This document shows positions 47,668 through 59,611 of a DNA stretch of 64,000 nt, one piece after another (the stretch's first letter is position 1; each line of letters starts with the position of its first letter). Below the pieces are notes generated by a model that made no database searches, had not been told where the DNA came from, and saw nothing but the letters and a program-made list of their open reading frames with translations. Both the position numbers and the translations under genes were made by a program. The stretch spans positions 1-64,000 of the forward strand of contig NZ_MSRR01000031.1 of assembly GCF_001956585.1 (NCBI RefSeq). The letters run 5' to 3'. The stretch is from Actinomyces naeslundii. Its GTDB lineage: Bacteria > Actinomycetota > Actinomycetes > Actinomycetales > Actinomycetaceae.

Positions 47668-48819
47668 TCAGGCCGGGTCGAGGACCAGCACCGGACGCGC
47701 GCGCGAGCCTTGATGCCTCAACAGTGCCACGAGCCGCCCGTCAGGAGCGAATCCGGCCACGACGCGCTGCCTGGAGATCCCCTTGGAGGCCACTTCCCCC
47801 AACCGGCCCTCGGGCGCCTCGGCCCGTTCCAGGACCGCGGCGTCGAGCGGCTGACCGTGGCGCAGTCCGCGAGCCTCGGGCTCTGTGAGGGCGAGCCGCT
47901 CGAAGCAGCGCCGGGCCACCTCCTCCAACGGGACTGTGGCGGCTCCGCGCGGGTCAGGGGTGACGGCGTCGGTCTCGACCTGCTCGGACAGCTCGATCAG
48001 GGTGCTGGCCTGACCGACGTCGAAGGGGCCGACCCCGGTGCGCCGCAGCGCGGTCAGGTGCGCGCCGCACCCCAGGGCCTGGCCCAGGTCACGGGCCAGG
48101 GCTCGCACGTAGGTGCCCGACGAGCAGGAGACCACGACATCATGGTCCACGACCTGGACCTCGCCCTCGGCTCCGTCCGTCTCGGCGCCCGTTGCGACTC
48201 CCCCTGCCGCAGCACCGGCGAGGTCGACACCGGCCTGACGGGGCTCTCCGGTCAGGCGCAGATCGTGGATGGTGACGGGCCTGGCCTCCAGCTCGACGTC
48301 CTGCCCGTCGCGAACCCGTTTGTAGGCGCGCACGCCGTCGACCTTGATGGCCGAGACGGCGCTGGGCACCTGCTGGATCTGTCCGGTCAGGCCGGCCAGT
48401 GCCTTCTGGAGGCGGTCCCCGGACAGGTCGTCGATCCGGCAGCCGTGGGCTGCGGTGACCTCGCCCTCGGCGTCCTCGGTAGTGGTCTCCAGCCCGAGGC
48501 GGATGGTGGCCGCGTAGGTCTTGTCCGCTCCCACCAGGTAGGTGAGGAATCGGGTGGCGCGTCCGACGCCCAGGAGCAGCAGGCCGGTGGCCATGGGGTC
48601 GAGGGTGCCGGCGTGCCCCACCTTGCGGGTGGCGGCCAGGCGCCGCGTGGCACCGACGACGTCGTGGCTGGTCAGCCCCTGGGGCTTGTCCACCAGGAGG
48701 ATCCCGTCGGAGGCTGGGACGGCTCCGCGAGGGACGTCGGGGCGGCGCCGACGCGCACGGTGGTGGTCGTTATCGCCACCGGCCCGCTCCACCGGCTCGG
48801 CCTGATCGGAGACGCTCAC
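47668..48819 (-). CDS. truB: tRNA pseudouridine(55) synthase TruB
   Basis: TruB makes pseudouridine 55 in the T loop of tRNA. The 383-residue protein shows [15 protein letters not shown], the catalytic [16 protein letters not shown] with its Asp, and [18 protein letters not shown]. An extra acidic insert (about residues 190-225) and a C-terminal extension make it longer than E. coli TruB. The GTG start overlaps the rbfA stop (GTGA), supporting cotranslation. An N-terminal tail of about 35 residues precedes the conserved core. Confidence 0.96.
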
Positions 48820-49310
48820 AGGCCCTCTGCGTCCCGAGCCGGCCCCTGATCGGCCGTCTGCTCATCATCCTCGTCGGTCTCGCCCGTGTCCTCGTCGTCG
48901 TGGCGGTAGGGGTCGGCCTCTCCCGCATAGGTGGCGCCCTCGGCGGCCTTGGCGATCTGGGCGTCGCGCACGCGGGCCTGAGCCAGGGCGTCCTCGAGGG
49001 TCTTGGCGGTCGTGGGCAGGGCGTCGAGCTGGAAGGTCAGGGACGGGGTGAGACGGATCCCCAGGGCCTTGCCGACCTCTGAGCGGATGAGGCCCTTGGC
49101 CGAGCGCAGTGCCTTGGCCGTCTCCTCGCGCTCCTCGTCGCTGCCGTAGACGGTGTAGAAGATGGTCGCCTGCTGCAGGTCGCCGGTGACACGGACGTCG
49201 GTGACGGTGACGAAGCCCAGGCGCGGATCCTTGATACGCCCCTGAAGGAGGCGGGCGACGGTCTCATGAATGCGGTCGGCGACCTTGCGGGCGCGGGCGG
49301 CGTCGGCCAT
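48816..49310 (-). CDS. rbfA: Ribosome-binding factor A
   Basis: RbfA helps mature the 16S rRNA 5' end in the small subunit. The 164-residue protein starts [23 protein letters not shown], contains the KH-like core [29 protein letters not shown], and ends in an acidic tail of about 45 residues. In most bacteria rbfA follows infB directly; here the two are 7.3 kb apart because of inserted genes. Confidence 0.95.
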
Positions 49311-49507: not shown

Positions 49508-50524
49508 ATGAGCTCCTCCCCCGGTGCATCCTCCTTGGAACCCGAACCCTCCGCGACGCCGAGTTCTCCGGCAGGCGCCCGAGGGCCGGCGTCGGCCTCC
49601 GGGGCGCTCGACGGTACCGGGATGGCCCTGGTCATCGGCTGCTACACCCTGTGGGGCGTCTTCCCCCTCTACTTCCACCTGTTGTCCGCGGCCGGCAGTG
49701 TGGAGATCATCGGTCACCGGATCGTGTGGACCCTGGGCACCTGTCTGGCGCTCATCGCCGCGCGCCGCCGTTGGGCGAGCCTTGCCCGCGTCTGCCGCAC
49801 GCCCCGACTGCTGGGGGCGCTGACCGTCTGTGGACTCCTGGTCTCGGTCAACTGGCTCGTCTACGTCTACGGTGTCAACACCGCACGCACGGCCGATGCC
49901 GCCCTGGGCTACTTCATCAACCCGTTGGTGACGGTGGCCCTGGCCTCGCTGGTCCTGCGCGAGCGGCTGCGCCCCGTCCACCGGGTCTCGATCGTGCTGG
50001 CGAGCGCCGCCGTCGCGCTCCTGGTGGTGCTCCAGGGCTCGCTGCCGTGGATCTCCCTGGCCCTGGCCTTCTCCTTCGCCCTGTACGGGCTGGTCAAGAA
50101 GCGGATCGGGCCTGACGTGGATGCCCTGACCGGACTGACGGTGGAGAGCGCCGTCGTGGCGCCTATCGCCCTTGCCTACCTGAGCTGCCTGGCCTGGCAG
50201 GGGCAGTCGGCCTGGCAGTCCCCCGACCAGGGCTGGCAGATCATGGCTCTGCTCGTGGTGGCCGGTCCGGTCACGGCCGTGCCCCTGCTGCTCTTCGCCG
50301 CAGGGACCAGGCGGGTACCGCTGTCGGTGGTGGGGATGAGTCAGTACATCGCCCCGACCATCCAGTTCCTTCTGGCCTGGGCCGTCTTCCATGAGCAGAT
50401 CCCGCCGGCGCGCTGGGCGGCCATGGTGCTGGTGTGGGCGGCGGTCGCGGTCTTCATCGGCGACGCCGTGCACCAGCTCATTCGCCGTCCTCATCCGCGT
50501 CCGGCAAACCGGCCTCGGCCCTGA
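49508..50524 (+). CDS. rarD: RarD/EamA-type transporter
   Basis: A 338-residue membrane protein of the RarD subgroup of EamA (drug/metabolite) transporters. About ten transmembrane segments run from residue 38, and the opening GCYTLWGVFPLYFHLLS...EIIGHRIVW is the RarD hallmark. The first 35 residues are a Pro/Ser/Ala-rich tail. Its role is likely metabolite export, with chloramphenicol sensitivity reported for E. coli RarD. Its 3' end overlaps the 3' end of the convergent slipin gene by 47 bases. Confidence 0.88.
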   Translation: MSSSPGASSLEPEPSATPSSPAGARGPASASGALDGTGMALVIGCYTLWGVFPLYFHLLSAAGSVEIIGHRIVWTLGTCLALIAARRRWASLARVCRTPRLLGALTVCGLLVSVNWLVYVYGVNTARTADAALGYFINPLVTVALASLVLRERLRPVHRVSIVLASAAVALLVVLQGSLPWISLALAFSFALYGLVKKRIGPDVDALTGLTVESAVVAPIALAYLSCLAWQGQSAWQSPDQGWQIMALLVVAGPVTAVPLLLFAAGTRRVPLSVVGMSQYIAPTIQFLLAWAVFHEQIPPARWAAMVLVWAAVAVFIGDAVHQLIRRPHPRPANRPRP

Positions 50525-51272
50525 AACGCTCCAGGAGCGGACCGATGATGTCCATCGGGAGGGGGAAGACGACTGTGGAGTTCTGGTCGGCGCCGAGCTC
50601 CAGGAGGGTCTGCAGGTAGCGCAGCTGGAGGGAGGCCGGTGACTTCGAGAGCGTGTCCGCCGCCTGGCGCAGCTCCTCGGAGGCCTGAAGCTCACCGCGG
50701 GCATTGATGATCTTGGCACGGCGCTCGCGCTCGGCCTCGGCACCACGGGCCATGGCCCGCTGCATCTGCTCGGGGATCTCGACGTCCTTGATCTCGACGA
50801 CGCTGACCTCCACACCCCAGGGCTCGGTGAGCTTCTCGATGATGTCGCGCAGGTCGGCGTTCAGGGCGCTGCGGTGGGCGAGCACGGTGTCCAGGTCGAC
50901 CCGCCCGAGGACGGATCTCAGTGTGGTCTGCGCGATCTGGGAGGTGGCGATCGCGTAGTTCTCCACCGCCATGACGGCTTTGACCGGGTCGGTGACGTTG
51001 AACAGGACGACGGCGTTGACGCGCGCCGGCACGTTGTCCTCCGTGATGACCTCCTGTGGCGGGATGGTCAGGGTGACCACTCGGGTGTCGACCCGTACCA
51101 GGCGCTCGAGGAAGGGGACGACCAGGTGCAGACCGGGCTCGTAGACGGGCCGCAGGCGCCCCAGCCTGAAGACGATGCCCCGCTCGTACTGGGTGATGAT
51201 CTTCAGCGAGAGCGCCAGGGCGAGCAGCACGAGGACGGCGAGCGCCACGACGGCGGAGACGGAAGTAGTCAT
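50478..51272 (-). CDS. SPFH/stomatin-like slipin
   Basis: A 264-residue slipin of the SPFH/Band 7 superfamily: one N-terminal transmembrane helix (about 6-25), then the PHB domain with ITQYERGIVFRLGRLRP, LTIPPQEVITEDNVPARVNAVV and the coiled-coil region REAxAERERRAKIINARGE-like near residues 175-200. Such proteins scaffold membrane microdomains and often associate with membrane proteases or redox proteins. It lies 50 bases after the Cys-motif membrane protein and probably belongs to the norB operon. Confidence 0.93.
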   Translation of the reverse strand: MTTSVSAVVALAVLVLLALALSLKIITQYERGIVFRLGRLRPVYEPGLHLVVPFLERLVRVDTRVVTLTIPPQEVITEDNVPARVNAVVLFNVTDPVKAVMAVENYAIATSQIAQTTLRSVLGRVDLDTVLAHRSALNADLRDIIEKLTEPWGVEVSVVEIKDVEIPEQMQRAMARGAEAERERRAKIINARGELQASEELRQAADTLSKSPASLQLRYLQTLLELGADQNSTVVFPLPMDIIGPLLERFRAEAGLPDADEDGE

Positions 51273-51322: not shown

Positions 51323-52264
51323 TCATCTGGTTGTGGTGTCGGTGGCCTCGTTCCATGCCGAGGACCATGAGCGCCGAGCTCCACCACGGGCACCATCACG
51401 AACACCGTCCGAGCCGAGCTCGGCACCGGCGACCGGTACTCGTCTGCGGGTGCGCAGGGCAGTGACACGGCGCAGCTCGGGCTCTGCGGAGGCGGCAGTC
51501 CCGCCGTCCGCCTTCCCGACGCCGTCGGGCTCGGCGACGAAGGAGACGTGCACGGACCGCCCCGACGCCGCCGCACGCGCCTGAGCGGCGGCGATCGCCT
51601 CGGCCGCCTCGCGCACCGAGCGGTAGCCCGAGGGGCGAGAGCCGATCGTCACCGGCACGGGTCCGGCTGGGGCGCTCGCCGCCAAGCGACGGGACTCCTC
51701 GGCCTCCCGGTACTCCTGGGAGCCGACGTGGGGCAGGTGTGCCGGTGCGTTGTCAGGAGTGCTCCACAGGTGGCGGGCCAGCGGCAGGACTCCGGTGACA
51801 ATGACGACAACGGCCGTTGTGCCCAGGACGATGAGGTCGCCGACGGCGTGAAAGGCCATCATGAGCAGCAGCGGGATGAAGACGCCGACGCAGGCGATGA
51901 CCAGGCCCACACCGCGATGGAAGCGTCCGGCGTCGGAGTAGGGCCACGGGTCAACGGGCCGGGTGATCTCCCGCGGGCCGGGAGTCGGTGAGCAGCTGTC
52001 CTTGGACGGGCAGCGCCCGCAGATCGCGTGGGCCCCCTCATAGCGGATGACGCGCTTGTCCGGGTCGAAGGCGGTGGGCCACAGCCACTGGTCCTCGTGG
52101 CACCTCCAGCCGTCGACGTCGTCGTGGTAGACGAAGTCCGAGTGGCGCCAGGACATCGAGTGCCGGGCGCTGCGTGAGCCGAGGACGTCCACGACCCACG
52201 CGGCGGCCAGCATGATGAGCGCGTAGGCGGAGATGAGCCACACGCTCAGGTCGGGTGAGCCCAT
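51323..52264 (-). CDS. Membrane protein with WhiB-like iron-sulfur motif
   Basis: A 313-residue protein of no family I can name. It has one N-terminal transmembrane helix (about 6-28), a Cys-rich loop, and two more helices (about 118-137 and 141-160), then a long Ala/Arg-rich tail. The loop has Cys55, Cys82, Cys85 and Cys91, i.e. C-x26-C-x2-C-x5-C, with CGRCPSKDSC at 82-91 closely matching the CxxCPxxxxC of WhiB regulators, and a WLWPTAFDP stretch resembling the WhiB FFP region. The WhiB GVWGG turn and basic DNA-binding tail are not seen. The ATG overlaps the norB stop by one base, so translation is coupled. Confidence 0.8.
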   Translation of the reverse strand: MGSPDLSVWLISAYALIMLAAAWVVDVLGSRSARHSMSWRHSDFVYHDDVDGWRCHEDQWLWPTAFDPDKRVIRYEGAHAICGRCPSKDSCSPTPGPREITRPVDPWPYSDAGRFHRGVGLVIACVGVFIPLLLMMAFHAVGDLIVLGTTAVVVIVTGVLPLARHLWSTPDNAPAHLPHVGSQEYREAEESRRLAASAPAGPVPVTIGSRPSGYRSVREAAEAIAAAQARAAASGRSVHVSFVAEPDGVGKADGGTAASAEPELRRVTALRTRRRVPVAGAELGSDGVRDGARGGARRSWSSAWNEATDTTTR

Positions 52265-54606
52265 CAGTCGTTCAGCTCCGCGCGCTCACCGCGCCAGGCC
52301 TTGCGCCCGCCCTTGATCTCCTCGTAGAGGGCGTCCTCGGCGAAGGTGTCCACCGTCCGTCCGCGACGCCAGTTCCTCAGTCCCAGGAAGGCGATGTAGA
52401 GGTAGGGCAGGACTCCGCCGATGATGAAGATGAGGTCTCCGGGCATCCGTCCCCACTCGATGATCGTGTTGACCGAGTTGGTGACGTAAGTGAGCTGGCG
52501 GGCCTCGAAGTAGCCAGTGCCCACCGAGTAGCGCAGCTGGAGGATGCCCAGCGGCAGCAGGGTGGCGAAGCACATCCAGGCCAGGCCGATGTTGAGGCTC
52601 CAGAAGGAGGTCTTGGCGAGCTTCTCGGGCCACTTGTCGACCGGTACCAGGTAGCGCAGGGCGAACATTCCCAGTGCCAGCGCCATGAAGCCGTAGACCC
52701 CCATCATGGAGGCGTGGGCGTGGTTGGCCGTCAGCGCGGTGCCGATCTCGTAGTAGGACACGATGGGCAGGTTGACCAGGAAGCCGAAGACACCGGCACC
52801 CAGGAAGTTCCAGAAGCCGACGGCCATGAGGAACATGACGGCCCAGCGGTGCGGGAAGGGCCCCGCCTCCTTGCCGTGACGGTTGGCGCCCAGCTGCATG
52901 AAGGCCCAGGCCTCCACCGTCAGGAAGGTCAGGGGGATCACCTCGGCGGCTGAGAAGAAGGCGCCCAGGGCCATGTGCTCCACCGGCGTGCCGGAGAAGT
53001 AGAGGTGGTGCATGGTCCCGATGACGCCACCGGCGGAGTACAGGATGATGTCCATGAAGATGATGCCCAGCGCGATCCTCTCCCGGACGACGCCCAGGAG
53101 GACGAACACGTAGGCGACCATGACGGTGGTGAACAGTTCGAGGAAGTCCTCGACCCACAGGTGCACCACCCAGAAGCGCCAGAACTCGGCGACGGTGACA
53201 TGGGTACCGGTGCGGGCCATCATCCCCACGGCGTAGAAGGCCGGGATCGCCAGCGCGGCGAACATGAACAGCCAGGGCATGTTGGCCACGTGCTCGTTGC
53301 TCAGGCGCCGGCGCATGGCGCGCCAGATGATGAACACCCAGACGAACAGGGCCACGGTGAGCAGGACCTGGAAGACGAAGGGCAGGTCGAGGTACTCCCA
53401 CTGCTGGGAGAACAGCGGCCCCTTGGCCCAGCTCAGACCGTGCTGGCTGGCCCCCTCGGCCAGGCAGGACAGAACGACGACGACCGTGGCCGCGATGAAC
53501 AGGGTCCATACCAGGACGTGCTGCCTCCTCGGCTCGCGCCTGGCGATGAAAGGCGTCAGGAACAGGCCGGCCGCGAGCAGCCCGATGGCGGTCCAGAACA
53601 AGGAGAGCTGGACGTGCCAGGTGCGGGCCAGTGAGAAGGGCAGGAGCCTGCCCAGGTCGAGGCCGAAGAAGGACAGCACGTCGGCCCGGTAGTGCTCGGC
53701 CAGGGCGCCCAGGAGCGTCTGCACGAGGAACAGGGCGGCGATGGTGAAGACGTACCAGGCCACCACCCTCTGCGACTTGGTCAGTCCGATCTCCTCGGGT
53801 TGTCGGAAGGACAGGGCCGGGGCCTCCTCCGAGTGCCAGCCGATCTTCTGGCTCCAGCGGCCGTAGATGGCGAACATGACCCCGGTTCCGCCGATGAGGA
53901 CGATCAGCGACAGGACCGACCAGATCATGAGGTCTCCCGTGGGCGCGTTGCCGACCAGGGACTCCGGGGGCCAGTTGTTCGTGTATGAGTAGTCGTGACC
54001 CGGGCGCTGCGCAGACGAGCCCCAAGCGGTCCAGCCGAAGAAGGCCGTCACCTGCTTGACCTGGACGGGATCAGTGATGAGATCCGGTTTAAGACCATGG
54101 CTGTGGGCATCGGGCCCGAACATCTTGGTGTAGTGACCGACGGCGTCGTTGTAGGCCTTGACCTGCTCATCGGTCCACACCAGGGTCCCCGTGGAGGGAT
54201 CGTAGCGGTTGGTCCGCAGCATCTCCTTGGTGGCGGCGGCCGGGTCGTCGACGCCCTGGGAGGCAAGCTGCTCCTTGACGCTCGTGGCCTCCATGCGGAG
54301 GTACTCGGCGGTGAAGTCGGGGCCGAGGTAGCCGCCGTGCCCCAGGATGGAGCCGTACTCCATGAGGCCTCTGGCCTGGAAGAGCTTCTGCCCCTCGGTG
54401 ATGTCCTGCGTCGTGAAGAGGGTCTCGCCGCTCTCTGTGACAACCCTCTCCGGTTGAGGCATGGAGTTGGTGTAGGTGCGATAGGCCAGCAGGCCCATGA
54501 CGGTGAATCCGAAGAGCATGACCAGGGCGACGCCCTGGATCCACCCCTTGCCAATGAGGCGAGCGCGTCGGGAGGTCGCCCCCTCAGCCGTGGCAGCGGA
54601 TGACAT
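52264..54606 (-). CDS. norB: Quinol-dependent nitric oxide reductase (qNor)
   Basis: qNor reduces nitric oxide to nitrous oxide using membrane quinol, in a single polypeptide that fuses NorC- and NorB-like parts. The 780-residue protein has a first helix (about 22-45), an extracellular NorC-like domain (about 50-220) and a heme-copper-oxidase-like core of about twelve helices. Ligand-region motifs include RTWHVQLSLFW, HLWVEDFLELF (His and Glu for the iron B site), GTMHHLYF and NHAHASMMG. ATG 54606 is preceded by CACGGAGGTACTCTC. It is detoxification or NO respiration, first gene of a coupled operon with the WhiB-like protein and slipin. Confidence 0.94.
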   Translation of the reverse strand: MSSAATAEGATSRRARLIGKGWIQGVALVMLFGFTVMGLLAYRTYTNSMPQPERVVTESGETLFTTQDITEGQKLFQARGLMEYGSILGHGGYLGPDFTAEYLRMEATSVKEQLASQGVDDPAAATKEMLRTNRYDPSTGTLVWTDEQVKAYNDAVGHYTKMFGPDAHSHGLKPDLITDPVQVKQVTAFFGWTAWGSSAQRPGHDYSYTNNWPPESLVGNAPTGDLMIWSVLSLIVLIGGTGVMFAIYGRWSQKIGWHSEEAPALSFRQPEEIGLTKSQRVVAWYVFTIAALFLVQTLLGALAEHYRADVLSFFGLDLGRLLPFSLARTWHVQLSLFWTAIGLLAAGLFLTPFIARREPRRQHVLVWTLFIAATVVVVLSCLAEGASQHGLSWAKGPLFSQQWEYLDLPFVFQVLLTVALFVWVFIIWRAMRRRLSNEHVANMPWLFMFAALAIPAFYAVGMMARTGTHVTVAEFWRFWVVHLWVEDFLELFTTVMVAYVFVLLGVVRERIALGIIFMDIILYSAGGVIGTMHHLYFSGTPVEHMALGAFFSAAEVIPLTFLTVEAWAFMQLGANRHGKEAGPFPHRWAVMFLMAVGFWNFLGAGVFGFLVNLPIVSYYEIGTALTANHAHASMMGVYGFMALALGMFALRYLVPVDKWPEKLAKTSFWSLNIGLAWMCFATLLPLGILQLRYSVGTGYFEARQLTYVTNSVNTIIEWGRMPGDLIFIIGGVLPYLYIAFLGLRNWRRGRTVDTFAEDALYEEIKGGRKAWRGERAELND

Positions 54607-54971: not shown

Positions 54972-56543
54972 ATGTCCCTTCTGCCTCTAGCCGCACAGAC
55001 CGTCAACGACGTCGCCCAGCAGTGCGTCGACACCGAGACCTTTCCACTGTGGCTGCGCGTCACCCACTTCATCAACTTCCTCCTCATGGGCGTCCTCATC
55101 CGCTCAGGCATCGAGATCATCGCCTCGCACCCGCGCTTCTACCTCAAGGACCAGTGCGAGCCCGGCTCCGAGTGGATCCGGTTCACCAAGGACAAGGTGC
55201 CCCTCGAGGAGGGCGCCTTCACCGCTCGAGACGACCAGCGCGACCTCTCCCCACTCATCTCGCTGCCCGGCCGGGCCAAGATCGGGTTAGGACGCGCCTG
55301 GCACGGAGTAGCCACGAGCTTCTGGCTGCTCAACGGCGTCGTGTATGTCGTCTTCCTCGTGGGCACCGGGGCGTGGCAGCGCCTGGTTCCGACGACCTGG
55401 CGGATCCTGCCCGACGCCTGGGACTCATTACTGACCTACGCGCACCTGCGCACCCCGTCCCTGTGCGACTTCACCCCCTACGACAGCCTTCAGCAGCTGG
55501 GGTACTTCTTCATCGTCTTCATCGCCGCCCCGCTGATGATCGTGACGGGCCCGGTCATGTCTCCGGCAGTCGTCGGGCGCTTCCCCTGGTACGCCAAGAT
55601 GTTCGGTGGACGCCAGGCCGCCCGCTCCCTGCACCTGATCGGCATGTTCACCTACCTGGGCTTCGCCGTCGTCCACGTGGGCCTGGTGTTCATCGTGCAC
55701 GCGCCCCACAACCTCACCCACATCGTCTTCGGTTACTACGACCCCAGCCGTGTGGGTCAGGCCTACGTCACCGTGATCGCGACGATCATCGTCGTCGTGG
55801 CACTGTGGATCGCCATGTCCTACTGGACGCTGACGGACACGCGCCGCAGCCAGCGGATCCTGTGGGACGCCACGCGGGGGATCCGCCACGTCACGGTGGA
55901 CCGCTTCAACTCCCAGCAGGCGGCCAAGAGGCCGTGGACGGAGAAGGACATCTCCAAGTTCCACTGGGTCAACACCCGTACCCCCTCGCGTGAGGAGTCC
56001 CCGGAGTACCAGGAGCTGGCGGCGAACGACTTCGCCGACTTCCGCCTCGAAGTAGGTGGCATGGTCTCGGAGCCGGCGTCCTTCTCCCTCGAAGAGCTCA
56101 AGGCGATCGCCAGCCAGTCCCAGATCACCATGCACACCTGCATGCAGGGATGGACGGGTATCGCCAAGTGGACGGGGATCCGGGTGCGGGATCTGCTCGA
56201 GCAGGTCGGCCAGGTCGACCCCGAGGCCGGATGGGTGATGTTCGAGTCCTTCGGCATGGCCCAGCACATGCACGACGGGCGCCCGGTCGAGCCGTACTAC
56301 ACGTGCCTCTCACTGGACATGGCCCTCGAGGATGACACGATCCTGGCCTGGGACCGCAATGACGAGCCGCTCTCGGGCATGTTCGGCGCCCCACTGCGAC
56401 TGCGCTGCGAAACGAGCCACGGGTACAAGATGATCAAGTGGGTCCGGTCAGTGACGGTGATCCGTCACTACAGCGAGGTCGGTGACGGCATGGGCGGGAC
56501 CCGCGAGGACTCCGGATACCAGGACGTCAACGCACGCATCTGA
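54972..56543 (+). CDS. Molybdopterin oxidoreductase fused to a cytochrome b561-type membrane domain
   Basis: A 523-residue two-domain protein. Residues about 20-290 form a di-haem b561-like membrane domain with several helices and histidines such as WLRVTHFINFLLMG, AWHGVATSFW and LHLIGMFTYLGFAVVHVGL. Residues about 350-515 form a sulfite-oxidase/YedY-type molybdopterin domain with candidate metal Cys390 in MHTCMQGWTG and the FESFGMAQHM, SHGYKMIKWV segments. It is probably quinone-coupled. The start at 54972 is preceded by GGCACGAC, not a strong ribosome site. Substrate unknown; sulfoxide or methionine-sulfoxide repair is one option. Confidence 0.82.
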   Translation: MSLLPLAAQTVNDVAQQCVDTETFPLWLRVTHFINFLLMGVLIRSGIEIIASHPRFYLKDQCEPGSEWIRFTKDKVPLEEGAFTARDDQRDLSPLISLPGRAKIGLGRAWHGVATSFWLLNGVVYVVFLVGTGAWQRLVPTTWRILPDAWDSLLTYAHLRTPSLCDFTPYDSLQQLGYFFIVFIAAPLMIVTGPVMSPAVVGRFPWYAKMFGGRQAARSLHLIGMFTYLGFAVVHVGLVFIVHAPHNLTHIVFGYYDPSRVGQAYVTVIATIIVVVALWIAMSYWTLTDTRRSQRILWDATRGIRHVTVDRFNSQQAAKRPWTEKDISKFHWVNTRTPSREESPEYQELAANDFADFRLEVGGMVSEPASFSLEELKAIASQSQITMHTCMQGWTGIAKWTGIRVRDLLEQVGQVDPEAGWVMFESFGMAQHMHDGRPVEPYYTCLSLDMALEDDTILAWDRNDEPLSGMFGAPLRLRCETSHGYKMIKWVRSVTVIRHYSEVGDGMGGTREDSGYQDVNARI

Positions 56544-56641: not shown

Positions 56642-59611
56642 TCAGTCGCGAGGCTTCTCGCGCATCTCCCAGGTCTCGATGACGTCGCCCTCGGCGATGT
56701 CCTTGAAGCCCAGGTTGATACCGCACTCGTAGCCCTCGCGGACCTCGGTGACGTCGTCCTTCTCGCGGCGCAGTGTCTCGATGGACAGATCGCCGTTGAT
56801 GACGACGCCGTCACGCACCAGGCGGGCCTTGGTACCCCGCTTGATGATGCCCGAGCGGACGATGGAGCCGGCGATGGAACCGAACTTCGAGGAGCGGAAG
56901 ATCTGCCGGATCTCGGCGGTGCCGAGCTCGACCTCCTCGTAGACGGGCTTGAGCATGCCCTTCATGGCGGCCTCGACGTCCTCGATCGCGTTGTAGATGA
57001 CCGAGTAGAACTTCATGTCGACGCCCTCGCGGTCGGCGATCTCCGAGACCCGCTCAGCGGGCCGGACGTTGAAGCCGATGATGACGGCGGAGTCCACCGT
57101 GGCCAGGTTGACGTCGTTCTGCGTGATGGCACCCACACCACGGTGGATGACGCGCAGGGCGACCTCCTCGCCGACATCGATCTTGAGCAGGGAGTCCTCC
57201 AGGGCCTCGACCGCACCCGAGCTGTCACCCTTGAGGATGAGGTTGAGGGTGTCGACCTTGCCCTCCTTGAGGACGTCGCTGAGGTTCTCCAGGGACACGC
57301 GCTTGCGACGCTTGGCCAGCAGGGCGGCGCGCTCGGCGGCCTCACGCTTGTCGGCGATCTGACGGGCCGTGCGGTCGTCGGGGGCGACGATGAAGGAGTC
57401 GCCGGCGCTGGGCACGTTCGTCAGTCCCAGGACCAGGGCCGGACGGGCGGGCCCGGCCTCGGTGAGGTTCTCCCCGTGCTCGTTGAACATCGCCCGCACG
57501 CGCCCGTAGGCGCTTCCGGCCACGATCGGGTCGCCGACCCGCAGCGTGCCGCGCTCGACCAGGATGGTGCTCACGGCACCGCGGCCCTTGTCGAGCTTGG
57601 CCTCGATGGTGACGCCGCGGGCCTCGGTCTCCGGGTTGGCCCGCAGGTCCAGGGCGGCATCCGCTGTGAGCAGGACGGCCTCGAGGAGCTCGTCGATGTG
57701 GAGACGCTGCTTGGCGGAGATGTCCACGAACATCGTCTCGCCGCCGTACTCCTCGGGGACCAGACCGTACTCGGTGAGCTGGCCGCGGATCTTGTCCGGG
57801 TTGGCGCCCTCCTTGTCGATCTTGTTGACCGCCACGACGATCGGCACATTGGCCGCCTGTGCGTGGTTGAGGGCCTCAACGGTCTGGGGCATGACGCCGT
57901 CGTCGGCGGCCACCACCAGGATGGCGATGTCGGTCACCTCGGCACCGCGGGCACGCATGGCCGTGAAGGCCTCGTGACCGGGGGTGTCGATGAAGGTGAT
58001 CGAACGATCCTCGTCGTTCAGGTTGACGCGGACCTGGTAGGCACCGATGGACTGGGTGATGCCCCCGGCCTCGCCGGCGACGACGTCGGTGGAGCGGATC
58101 GCGTCCAGCAGCTTGGTCTTACCGTGGTCGACGTGTCCCATGACCGTGACCACCGGGGGCCGCGGCACGAGGTTGGCGTCGTCCTCATCGGGCTCGAGGT
58201 CGATGTCGAAGGACTCCAGCAGCTCTCGGTCCTCGTCCTCGGGCGAGACGATCTGGACGTTGTAGCCCAGCTCGGCGCCCAGGAGGGCGAAGGTGTCCTC
58301 GTCGAGGGACTGGGTGGCCGTGGCCATCTCACCGAGGTGGAACAGCACGGTCACCAGGGCCGCAGGGTTGGCGTTGATCTTCTCGGCCAGGTCGGTGAGC
58401 GTCGCGCCCTGGCGCACACGCACCGGGGTGGAGCCGTCACCGCGCGGGACAATGACACCGCCGATCGACGGCGCGCTCTGCTGCTCGAACTCCTGGCGCT
58501 TGGCCCGCTTGGACTTGCGTCCCCGCGGGGCGCCACCGCCACGTCCGAAGGCGCCCTGGGTGGAGCCGCGGCCACCGCGACCACCGCGAGGCCCGCCGAA
58601 ACCGCCTCCGGGACGACCACCGCCGCCTCCGGGACGGCCGCCACCACCGGGACGCGAGCCGCGGCCACCGCCGCCGGCACCGCCACGCGCCGGGGCGCCG
58701 GGACGGCCGATGGAGGACTGGCCGGGCATCATGCCCGGGTTGGGACGCGGACCGCCCGGGCGCGGGGCACCGGAACGACCGGCTCCCTGAGGCCGTGCAC
58801 CGCCCTGAGGACGGGGGCCGCCGGGGCGCGGGCCGCCCTGGGGACGGGGACCGCCCGAGCCGCCCAGGCGGGGCATGCCCTGGGAGGTGGCGAAGGGGTT
58901 GTTGCCGGGACGCGGCGCACCCGAGCGTGACTGGCCCGAGCGCTGGCCGCCTCGGCCTCCCTGGCCACCCTGACGGGGCATGCCCTGGGAGGTGGCGAAG
59001 GGGTTGTTGCCGGGACGCGGAGCCCCGGGACGCGGCCCCGGCGTCGGGGCGTTGCGGCGAGGACCGGGCGTGGGCGCTCCGGATGCAGCCGCCGGCCTAG
59101 GAGCACCGGCACCGGGCCTGGATGCCTTGGGGGCGTCGTCGGGGGTGGAGGCACCGCCCTGGGTCCCGGGCTTCGCGGCACCCGCTCCGGCCGGAGCACT
59201 GCCACCGGGCTTGGGAGCCGAGGCTGCGGGCTTGGGGCCGGCCGCCGGGGCGCCGGGCTTGGGAGCACCGGCGCCCGTCCTGGGAGCGGCGGAGCTAGCC
59301 GTCGCGTCCGTAGCACCGGCTGCGGGCTTCGGCTTAGCGGCCGCTCCGGGCTTGGGGGCGGCCTTGCCCGGCTTGGGAGCCGGGGAGGCGGCCTTGGCCG
59401 GATGGTCGGCCTGAGTGTCCGCCGGTGCCTCCTGCACCTGGGCGGCGAAGTGCTCGCGAACCCGGCGAGCGACGGGGGGCTCGACCGCGGAGGAGGCCGC
59501 CTTGACGAACTCTCCCTGGTCCTTGAGCCAGGCCAGGATCACCTTCGAGGTGACCTTCTTGCCAGTGGGGTCGAGCTCCTTGGCGAGCTCATGAACGCGT
59601 GGTTTAGCCAC
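56642..59611 (-). CDS. infB: Translation initiation factor IF-2
   Basis: IF-2 is the GTPase that brings initiator tRNA to the 30S subunit. The 989-residue protein has the N-terminal IF2_N helix motif [13 protein letters not shown], a long Pro/Gly/Arg/Ala-rich linker (about 60-370) with repeats, and the conserved GTPase domain: [20 protein letters not shown]. Domains II-IV follow to the end. Long linkers of this kind are usual in Actinobacteria. Confidence 0.98.
58870..59020. repeat. 46-bp exact direct repeat in the infB linker
   Basis: Positions 58870-58915 and 58975-59020 are identical over 46 bases and 105 bases (35 codons) apart. They encode the same [15 protein letters not shown] segment twice in the Gly/Pro/Arg-rich linker of IF-2. 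Confidence 0.85.

Follow-up and report, generated by a model that had tools for sequence, protein, structure and literature searches.

Organization of the norB-norX locus

The DNA analysed here (the window) is a stretch of 64,000 nucleotides from a contig of Actinomyces naeslundii (NZ_MSRR01000031.1). Its minus strand carries, in this order, norB (52264–54606, putative start codon), a 313-amino-acid open reading frame that we name norX (51323–52264), and a gene encoding a stomatin-like SPFH/Band 7 protein (50478–51272). NorB matched PF22085 and PF00115 and is taken as a quinol-type nitric oxide reductase (qNor). The norB stop codon and the norX ATG have one base in common (TGATG), in agreement with an earlier reading of this DNA from the sequence only, which had placed the norX start on the last base of norB. 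The product of the third gene matched Band_7 (PF01145), and its matches to HflK and HflC were below the cut-off. Divergently from norB, the plus strand encodes a fusion of cytochrome b561 with a sulfite-oxidase-type molybdenum domain, recognized by domain matches (54972–56543, putative start). The rbfA and infB genes are usually close together; in the window (48816–49310 and 56642–59611, both on the minus strand) they are split by a rarD/eamA gene and the norB cassette, the SPFH, norX, norB and molybdenum genes sitting between rarD/eamA and infB. The 3' ends of the SPFH gene and of the convergent rarD/eamA gene overlap by 47 bases (50478–50524). A scan for promoters and terminators gave a single promoter-like match, located inside norB, no terminator and nothing above chance, and PADLOC gave no match.

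The conserved core of NorX extends from residue 1 to about residue 185, as judged from alignment and structural model. The tail of the window protein (residues 190–313; 51326–51697, minus strand) is rich in A, R, G and S, and the total length of NorX is only 198–256 codons in four other genomes (G537, G597, G604 and G559). AlphaFold2 predicted three long helices, residues 6–41, 111–137 and 141–168, with four cysteines between the first two. Membrane helix 1 probably covers about residues 6–28 (52181–52249), helix 2 corresponds to 51854–51934, and helix 3 to 51761–51844, all on the minus strand; the AlphaFold2 run with NorX rows alone predicted helices as well. The cysteines, identified by translation and alignment, are Cys55 (codon 52100–52102), Cys82 (52019–52021), Cys85 (52010–52012) and Cys91 (51992–51994), spaced C-x26-C-x2-C-x5-C with the motif CGRCPSKDSC; translation and model together confirmed that this motif is placed in a loop between membrane helices 1 and 2 of three, as the earlier reading had it. 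The protein has one more cysteine, Cys125, which lies in helix 2 and occupies a column that is not conserved.

In an alignment of 30 NorX rows, C55 was kept in all 29 rows that reach this column, and C82, C85 and C91 in 30 of 30, so the lack of conservation that would have refuted the earlier reading was not seen. The exact spacing was found in 29 rows, the remaining one starting after C1 at the start of a contig. This invariance indicates that the motif exceeds chance. R71, R74, Y75, K88, R98, E99, D105, W107, P108, S110, F115, H116 and R117 were also invariant (30 of 30), and R114 was kept in 29 of 30 rows; helix 2 opens with R-F-H-R-G, preceded by the conserved D105, W107, P108 and S110. 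Residues 1–5 contain no K or R, and an Arg/His-rich stretch directly follows helix 1; the whole loop has 11 K/R and 12 D/E. The positive-inside rule is used to orient membrane proteins, and because of the basic stretch after helix 1, the only indication and a slender one, the loop probably faces the cytoplasm.

Association of norX with norB in Actinomycetota

Named NorX relatives were found in Actinomyces, which has the nearest ones, and in Kineosphaera (L016, Kineosphaera limosa); further ones came from additional genera, families and classes of Actinomycetota, the phylum within which the genome censuses of norX and norB were made. For the window's family, 213 genomes were searched, and the 21 with a NorX relative were the identical 21 with the NorB domain, at 22 places each, one genome (G013) having two. 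The same was true in a second family (a sample of 131 genomes, including G537), which PPE proteins in one locus (L105) suggest to be mycobacterial: both genes were present in the identical five genomes, with 1.68–1.87 kb between the NorB and NorX matches, as expected of neighbours. The intervening sequence was read for two of these five (G537 and G597; L104 and L105). A sample of the phylum (396 genomes) contained seven genomes with both genes, four with norB only and two with norX only; a candidate norX in G598 was dropped, as it proved to be an EndoIII-type Fe-S loop. The samples share some genomes, and the NorX search scored up to 10 candidates per genome in the 213-genome family, 5 in the phylum sample and 26 in the 131-genome family, so that weak relatives may escape.

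Two of the four norB-only genomes (G351 and G345) have short norB pieces, and the other two, from one genus (G255 and G462), carry norB at full length, and the surrounding 13 kb that were read contain no norX; qNor can therefore apparently do without NorX. At L095 4545–6920, the norB of G351 is cut to an open frame of only 357 codons and adjoins a Mutator-family transposase gene. In G345, norB is represented by a 372-codon piece that by eye belongs to another qNor type, and the contig has a mixed appearance. Two genomes, both fragmented assemblies, have norX and no detected norB (G521 and G575). In G521, norX was matched only from about residue 50, and no norB was present on its 5-kb contig; in G575, norX sits at a contig end. 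At L099 401–2664, the G521 piece is head-to-head with another Band 7 gene.

In a further class (39 genomes, including G396), norB was present in two genomes and NorX of full grade (E below 1e-40) in four, of which the two lacking norB are fragmented, with a completeness of 86 and 77 percent; 14 genomes matched the NorX profile, the ten not counted as NorX having transposase-only matches, within model positions 33–104. The norB of G396 (L106, 6285–8627) was matched in two reading frames, which suggests a frameshift or an assembly error. In conclusion, the link between norX and norB is strong but not absolute: the expectation that the gene occurs mostly with norB held exactly in the two families, and the wider sample contained exceptions in both directions.

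The two genes overlap at 9 of 14 norB-norX junctions, by TGATG in the window, L005, L011, L014 and L034, by ATGA in L037, L039 and L041, and by GTGA in L042; no overlap was present in L016, L036, L040, L043 and L044. NorB and NorX distances over 22 pairs were correlated (rho 0.81, with none of 1000 permutations as high), a correlation that is in part shared species history.

The order norB-norX-SPFH was found in all 22 family-level loci. The SPFH gene also follows norX in L016 and L039–L041; in G559, G418 and G396, none was found next to norX. The b561-molybdenum fusion lies beside norB in 8 of 12 loci of named relatives (L005–L012, all Actinomyces) and was not found in L014–L016, L013 ending too near norB to tell. 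rbfA was found in all 49 genus genomes searched, and loci were available for 30, 17 of them without norBX. Five of these 17 (L162, L166, L168, L172 and L178) contain rbfA, eamA and infB, with no SPFH, norX, norB or molybdenum gene between eamA and infB; two others have infB and no eamA within 1.5 kb, and ten have no infB within the 1.5 kb read. As the four genes are missing together in five relatives, the cassette behaves as a unit where the locus is readable. In individual loci elsewhere, genes for the nitrate reductase alpha subunit (L106), cytochrome bd subunit I (L103) or a COX1-type oxidase (L104) are near norB-norX, which is consistent with respiratory NO metabolism.

Relationship of the cysteine loop to IS1182 transposases

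Profile comparison showed homology between the NorX loop and a domain of IS1182-family transposases, their cysteine domain (NCBIfam NF033551; Pfam PF13751, DDE_Tnp_1_6). Aligned by hhalign with ten transposase domains, it gave a probability of 99.4 and an E-value of 5e-21 over 68 gapless columns, compared with a probability of 44 and an E-value of 2e-4 for four WhiB proteins of the same genome, over 30 columns around C2–C4; eight column-shuffled controls gave probabilities of at most 2.5. NF033551 matched residues 33–105 of the window NorX with an E-value of 2.7e-5, only over model positions 347–418 of 488, and three distant relatives (L041–L043) with E-values of 6e-12, 9e-12 and 1e-11, all NorX matches being under the whole-protein cut-off of this model, 270 bits. 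PF13751 was not among the Pfam matches of the window NorX, and in the six relatives scanned with Pfam (L041, L043, L042, L016, L034 and L040) its matches were all below the cut-off, the best by little (24.8 versus 25.1 bits). Conversely, the NorX profile picked up transposases of actinobacterial genomes with E-values down to 3e-17, the matches falling in the loop.

NorX and the IS1182 transposases have in common the four cysteines and the positions of F-x-Y, C1, an RY-like pair, C-x2-C-x5-C and R-x-x-x-R. The C1–C2 spacing is 26 residues, identical to that of NorX, in 13 of 30 transposase rows, and 34 in 14. NorX differs from the transposases in that its domain is set between membrane helices and is not accompanied by a DDE catalytic core: no DDE family was matched by Pfam in the window NorX, hence no core and no full-length transposase. 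In a 54-row tree built on only 65 columns, a branch with 99/99 support set the 24 distinct NorX domains together, apart from the other rows. The module presumably moved from transposase to NorX. Five of the transposase loci L138–L154 (L138, L139, L143, L145 and L149) were run against family libraries, the rest being judged by position and alignment. A search for the IS1182 family in 19 relatives gave nothing over the cut-off, and in 6 of the 9 matching genomes the matches include the norX place itself (positions 347–418). The one plasmid match of the window NorX (Roseobacter) was a PF13751 transposase fragment, and was therefore not counted as NorX outside Actinomycetota.

Other collections gave little. 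Neither Pfam nor NCBIfam has a dedicated family for NorX, a sequence search of the PDB gave nothing below E 0.7, and no relative was present in the viral contigs scanned with the NorX alignment. PHROGs gave no match for the window NorX; the L041 protein matched phrog_8928, a family of unknown function, over the finger (E 1.8e-5).

The sequence-only reading had likened the loop to the iron-sulfur motif of WhiB proteins, an identification that did not survive. PF02467 did not match the window NorX up to E 10, in a search where HMMER filters drop most weak matches; among the six relatives only L034 matched, with 19.6 bits for a curated cut-off of 23.6 bits. In the same genome, four WhiB places were over this cut-off, none of which is NorX. 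The motif GVWGG, called characteristic of WhiB in PMC5741622, is missing from the NorX translation, as the earlier reading had noted. According to the same paper, Cys9, 37, 40 and 46 of WhiB1 hold an NO-reactive [4Fe-4S] cluster in a helical fold (PMC5741622). NorX therefore resembles WhiB/Wbl proteins (PF02467) in its C-xn-C-x2-C-x5-C spacing, and differs from them by the lack of a PF02467 match in the window protein, the lack of GVWGG, a modelled finger that is beta-rich and its nature as a membrane protein. With PF02467 below its cut-off, no GVWGG and a profile likeness confined to 30 columns, WhiB kinship was rejected. It is reasonable to suppose, as proposed earlier, that NorX does not act in transcription.

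The finger itself (residues 44–103; 51956–52135, minus strand) is delimited by the transposase homology and by the modelled fold. AlphaFold2 run with NorX rows alone gave pLDDT values below 50 at residues 37–85 and 92–104. An input of nine NorX rows plus ten from transposases gave a mean pLDDT of 88.3 and loop block means of 75–90, and the finger was modelled with strands 44–47, 52–55, 60–67 and 72–77, helices 79–82 and 88–91, and strand 99–103. The runs without and with transposase rows also differ in length (190 versus 170 residues) and in the number of NorX rows (12 versus 9), so the gain in pLDDT is not a clean control for the transposase rows. The loop is thus predicted to be a beta-rich finger. 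A fold search of the PDB with the NorX model gave nothing at E 0.001 or better, and the VIA-align list, mostly helical hairpins, was uninformative on the finger.

The four-cysteine centre could bind zinc or a [4Fe-4S] cluster, both being equally compatible with the NorX sequence. Given the transposase kinship, a structural zinc finger would be no less fitting than a WhiB1-like cluster. Titles and abstract openings of the open-access papers searched gave no metal for the IS1182 domain.

Possible roles of NorX

The earlier suggestion that norX is an undescribed partner gene of qNor is well supported by genomics, norX being tightly linked to norB. Its product has no family of its own in Pfam or NCBIfam, and no NorX-type protein was described in the titles and abstract openings of the open-access papers searched. 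We favour, with about even confidence, the explanation that NorX is dedicated to actinobacterial qNor, either as an accessory subunit or as an assembly factor, and that in it the transposase-type finger is a docking platform. NorX would be translated in step with NorB, and its three membrane helices would anchor it beside NorB, a contact that we infer together with the accessory role. The compact finger, presumably closed by one metal centre on the four cysteines and probably on the cytoplasmic face, would most likely dock or stabilise NorB and the stomatin-like scaffold protein encoded next. The SPFH neighbour fits such a membrane-scaffold role by analogy with HflKC, the loss of which lowers E. 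coli respiration (PMC12005517); the likeness to HflK/HflC and stomatin SPFH proteins concerns the third gene of the cassette, not NorX.

The best rival, possible although unlikely, is that an NO-reactive [4Fe-4S] cluster on NorX senses or mops up cytoplasmic NO, protecting the cell or tuning NorB, as proposed for NorA of Ralstonia. The cysteine spacing of NorX is close to that of WhiB1 (PMC5741622), a false match of the norX search was an Fe-S loop of EndoIII type, and one relative, L034, gave a sub-threshold score with the WhiB profile; however, this similarity is limited to 30 columns around C2–C4, the modelled finger is beta-rich where WhiB1 is helical, and the actual homologue is a transposase domain for which the literature surveyed states no metal. 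NorA is described as a putative NO-binding helper that works with NorB against NO (PMC9045102), but it is a hemerythrin-like di-iron protein, and the parallel with NorX is functional, no sequence relation being claimed. A combination of the two ideas, in which the mobile-element finger holds an NO-reactive [4Fe-4S] cluster and was recruited by a respiratory NO reductase to sense or absorb NO in the cytoplasm, appears somewhat more doubtful still; if it were true that the finger holds such a cluster, the IS1182 transposases would by implication be Fe-S proteins too.

It is improbable that NorX serves the stomatin-like protein, in membrane microdomain or protease control, with only an indirect link to NO. 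The constant place of the SPFH gene after norX in the family-level loci, the Band 7 gene beside the G521 norX piece where no norB was found, and the respiratory effect of HflKC loss (PMC12005517) agree with this proposal, but norX remains with norB in the three genomes where no SPFH gene was found. Least probable is a role as electron-entry or quinone-site subunit, in which the membrane-edge R-F-H-R-G and a redox centre would feed electrons to NorB: the near-invariance of R114 to R117 at the start of helix 2 and the constant pairing with norB in two families would suit it, but a lone four-cysteine centre makes no chain, intact norB exists without norX, and qNor draws its electrons directly from quinol.

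As a rule, qNor is regarded as an enzyme made of a single protein. The association of the reductase with a transposase-finger membrane protein, and mostly with a stomatin-like scaffold, is recurrent across Actinomycetota, oral Actinomyces included. If NorB needs NorX, a component is missing from heterologous studies of qNor, and also from predictions that infer the NO tolerance of these bacteria from norB. NorX would also exemplify the reuse of a prokaryotic transposase module within a membrane protein and, being small, it offers a direct way to test which metal the widespread IS1182 cysteine domain contains.
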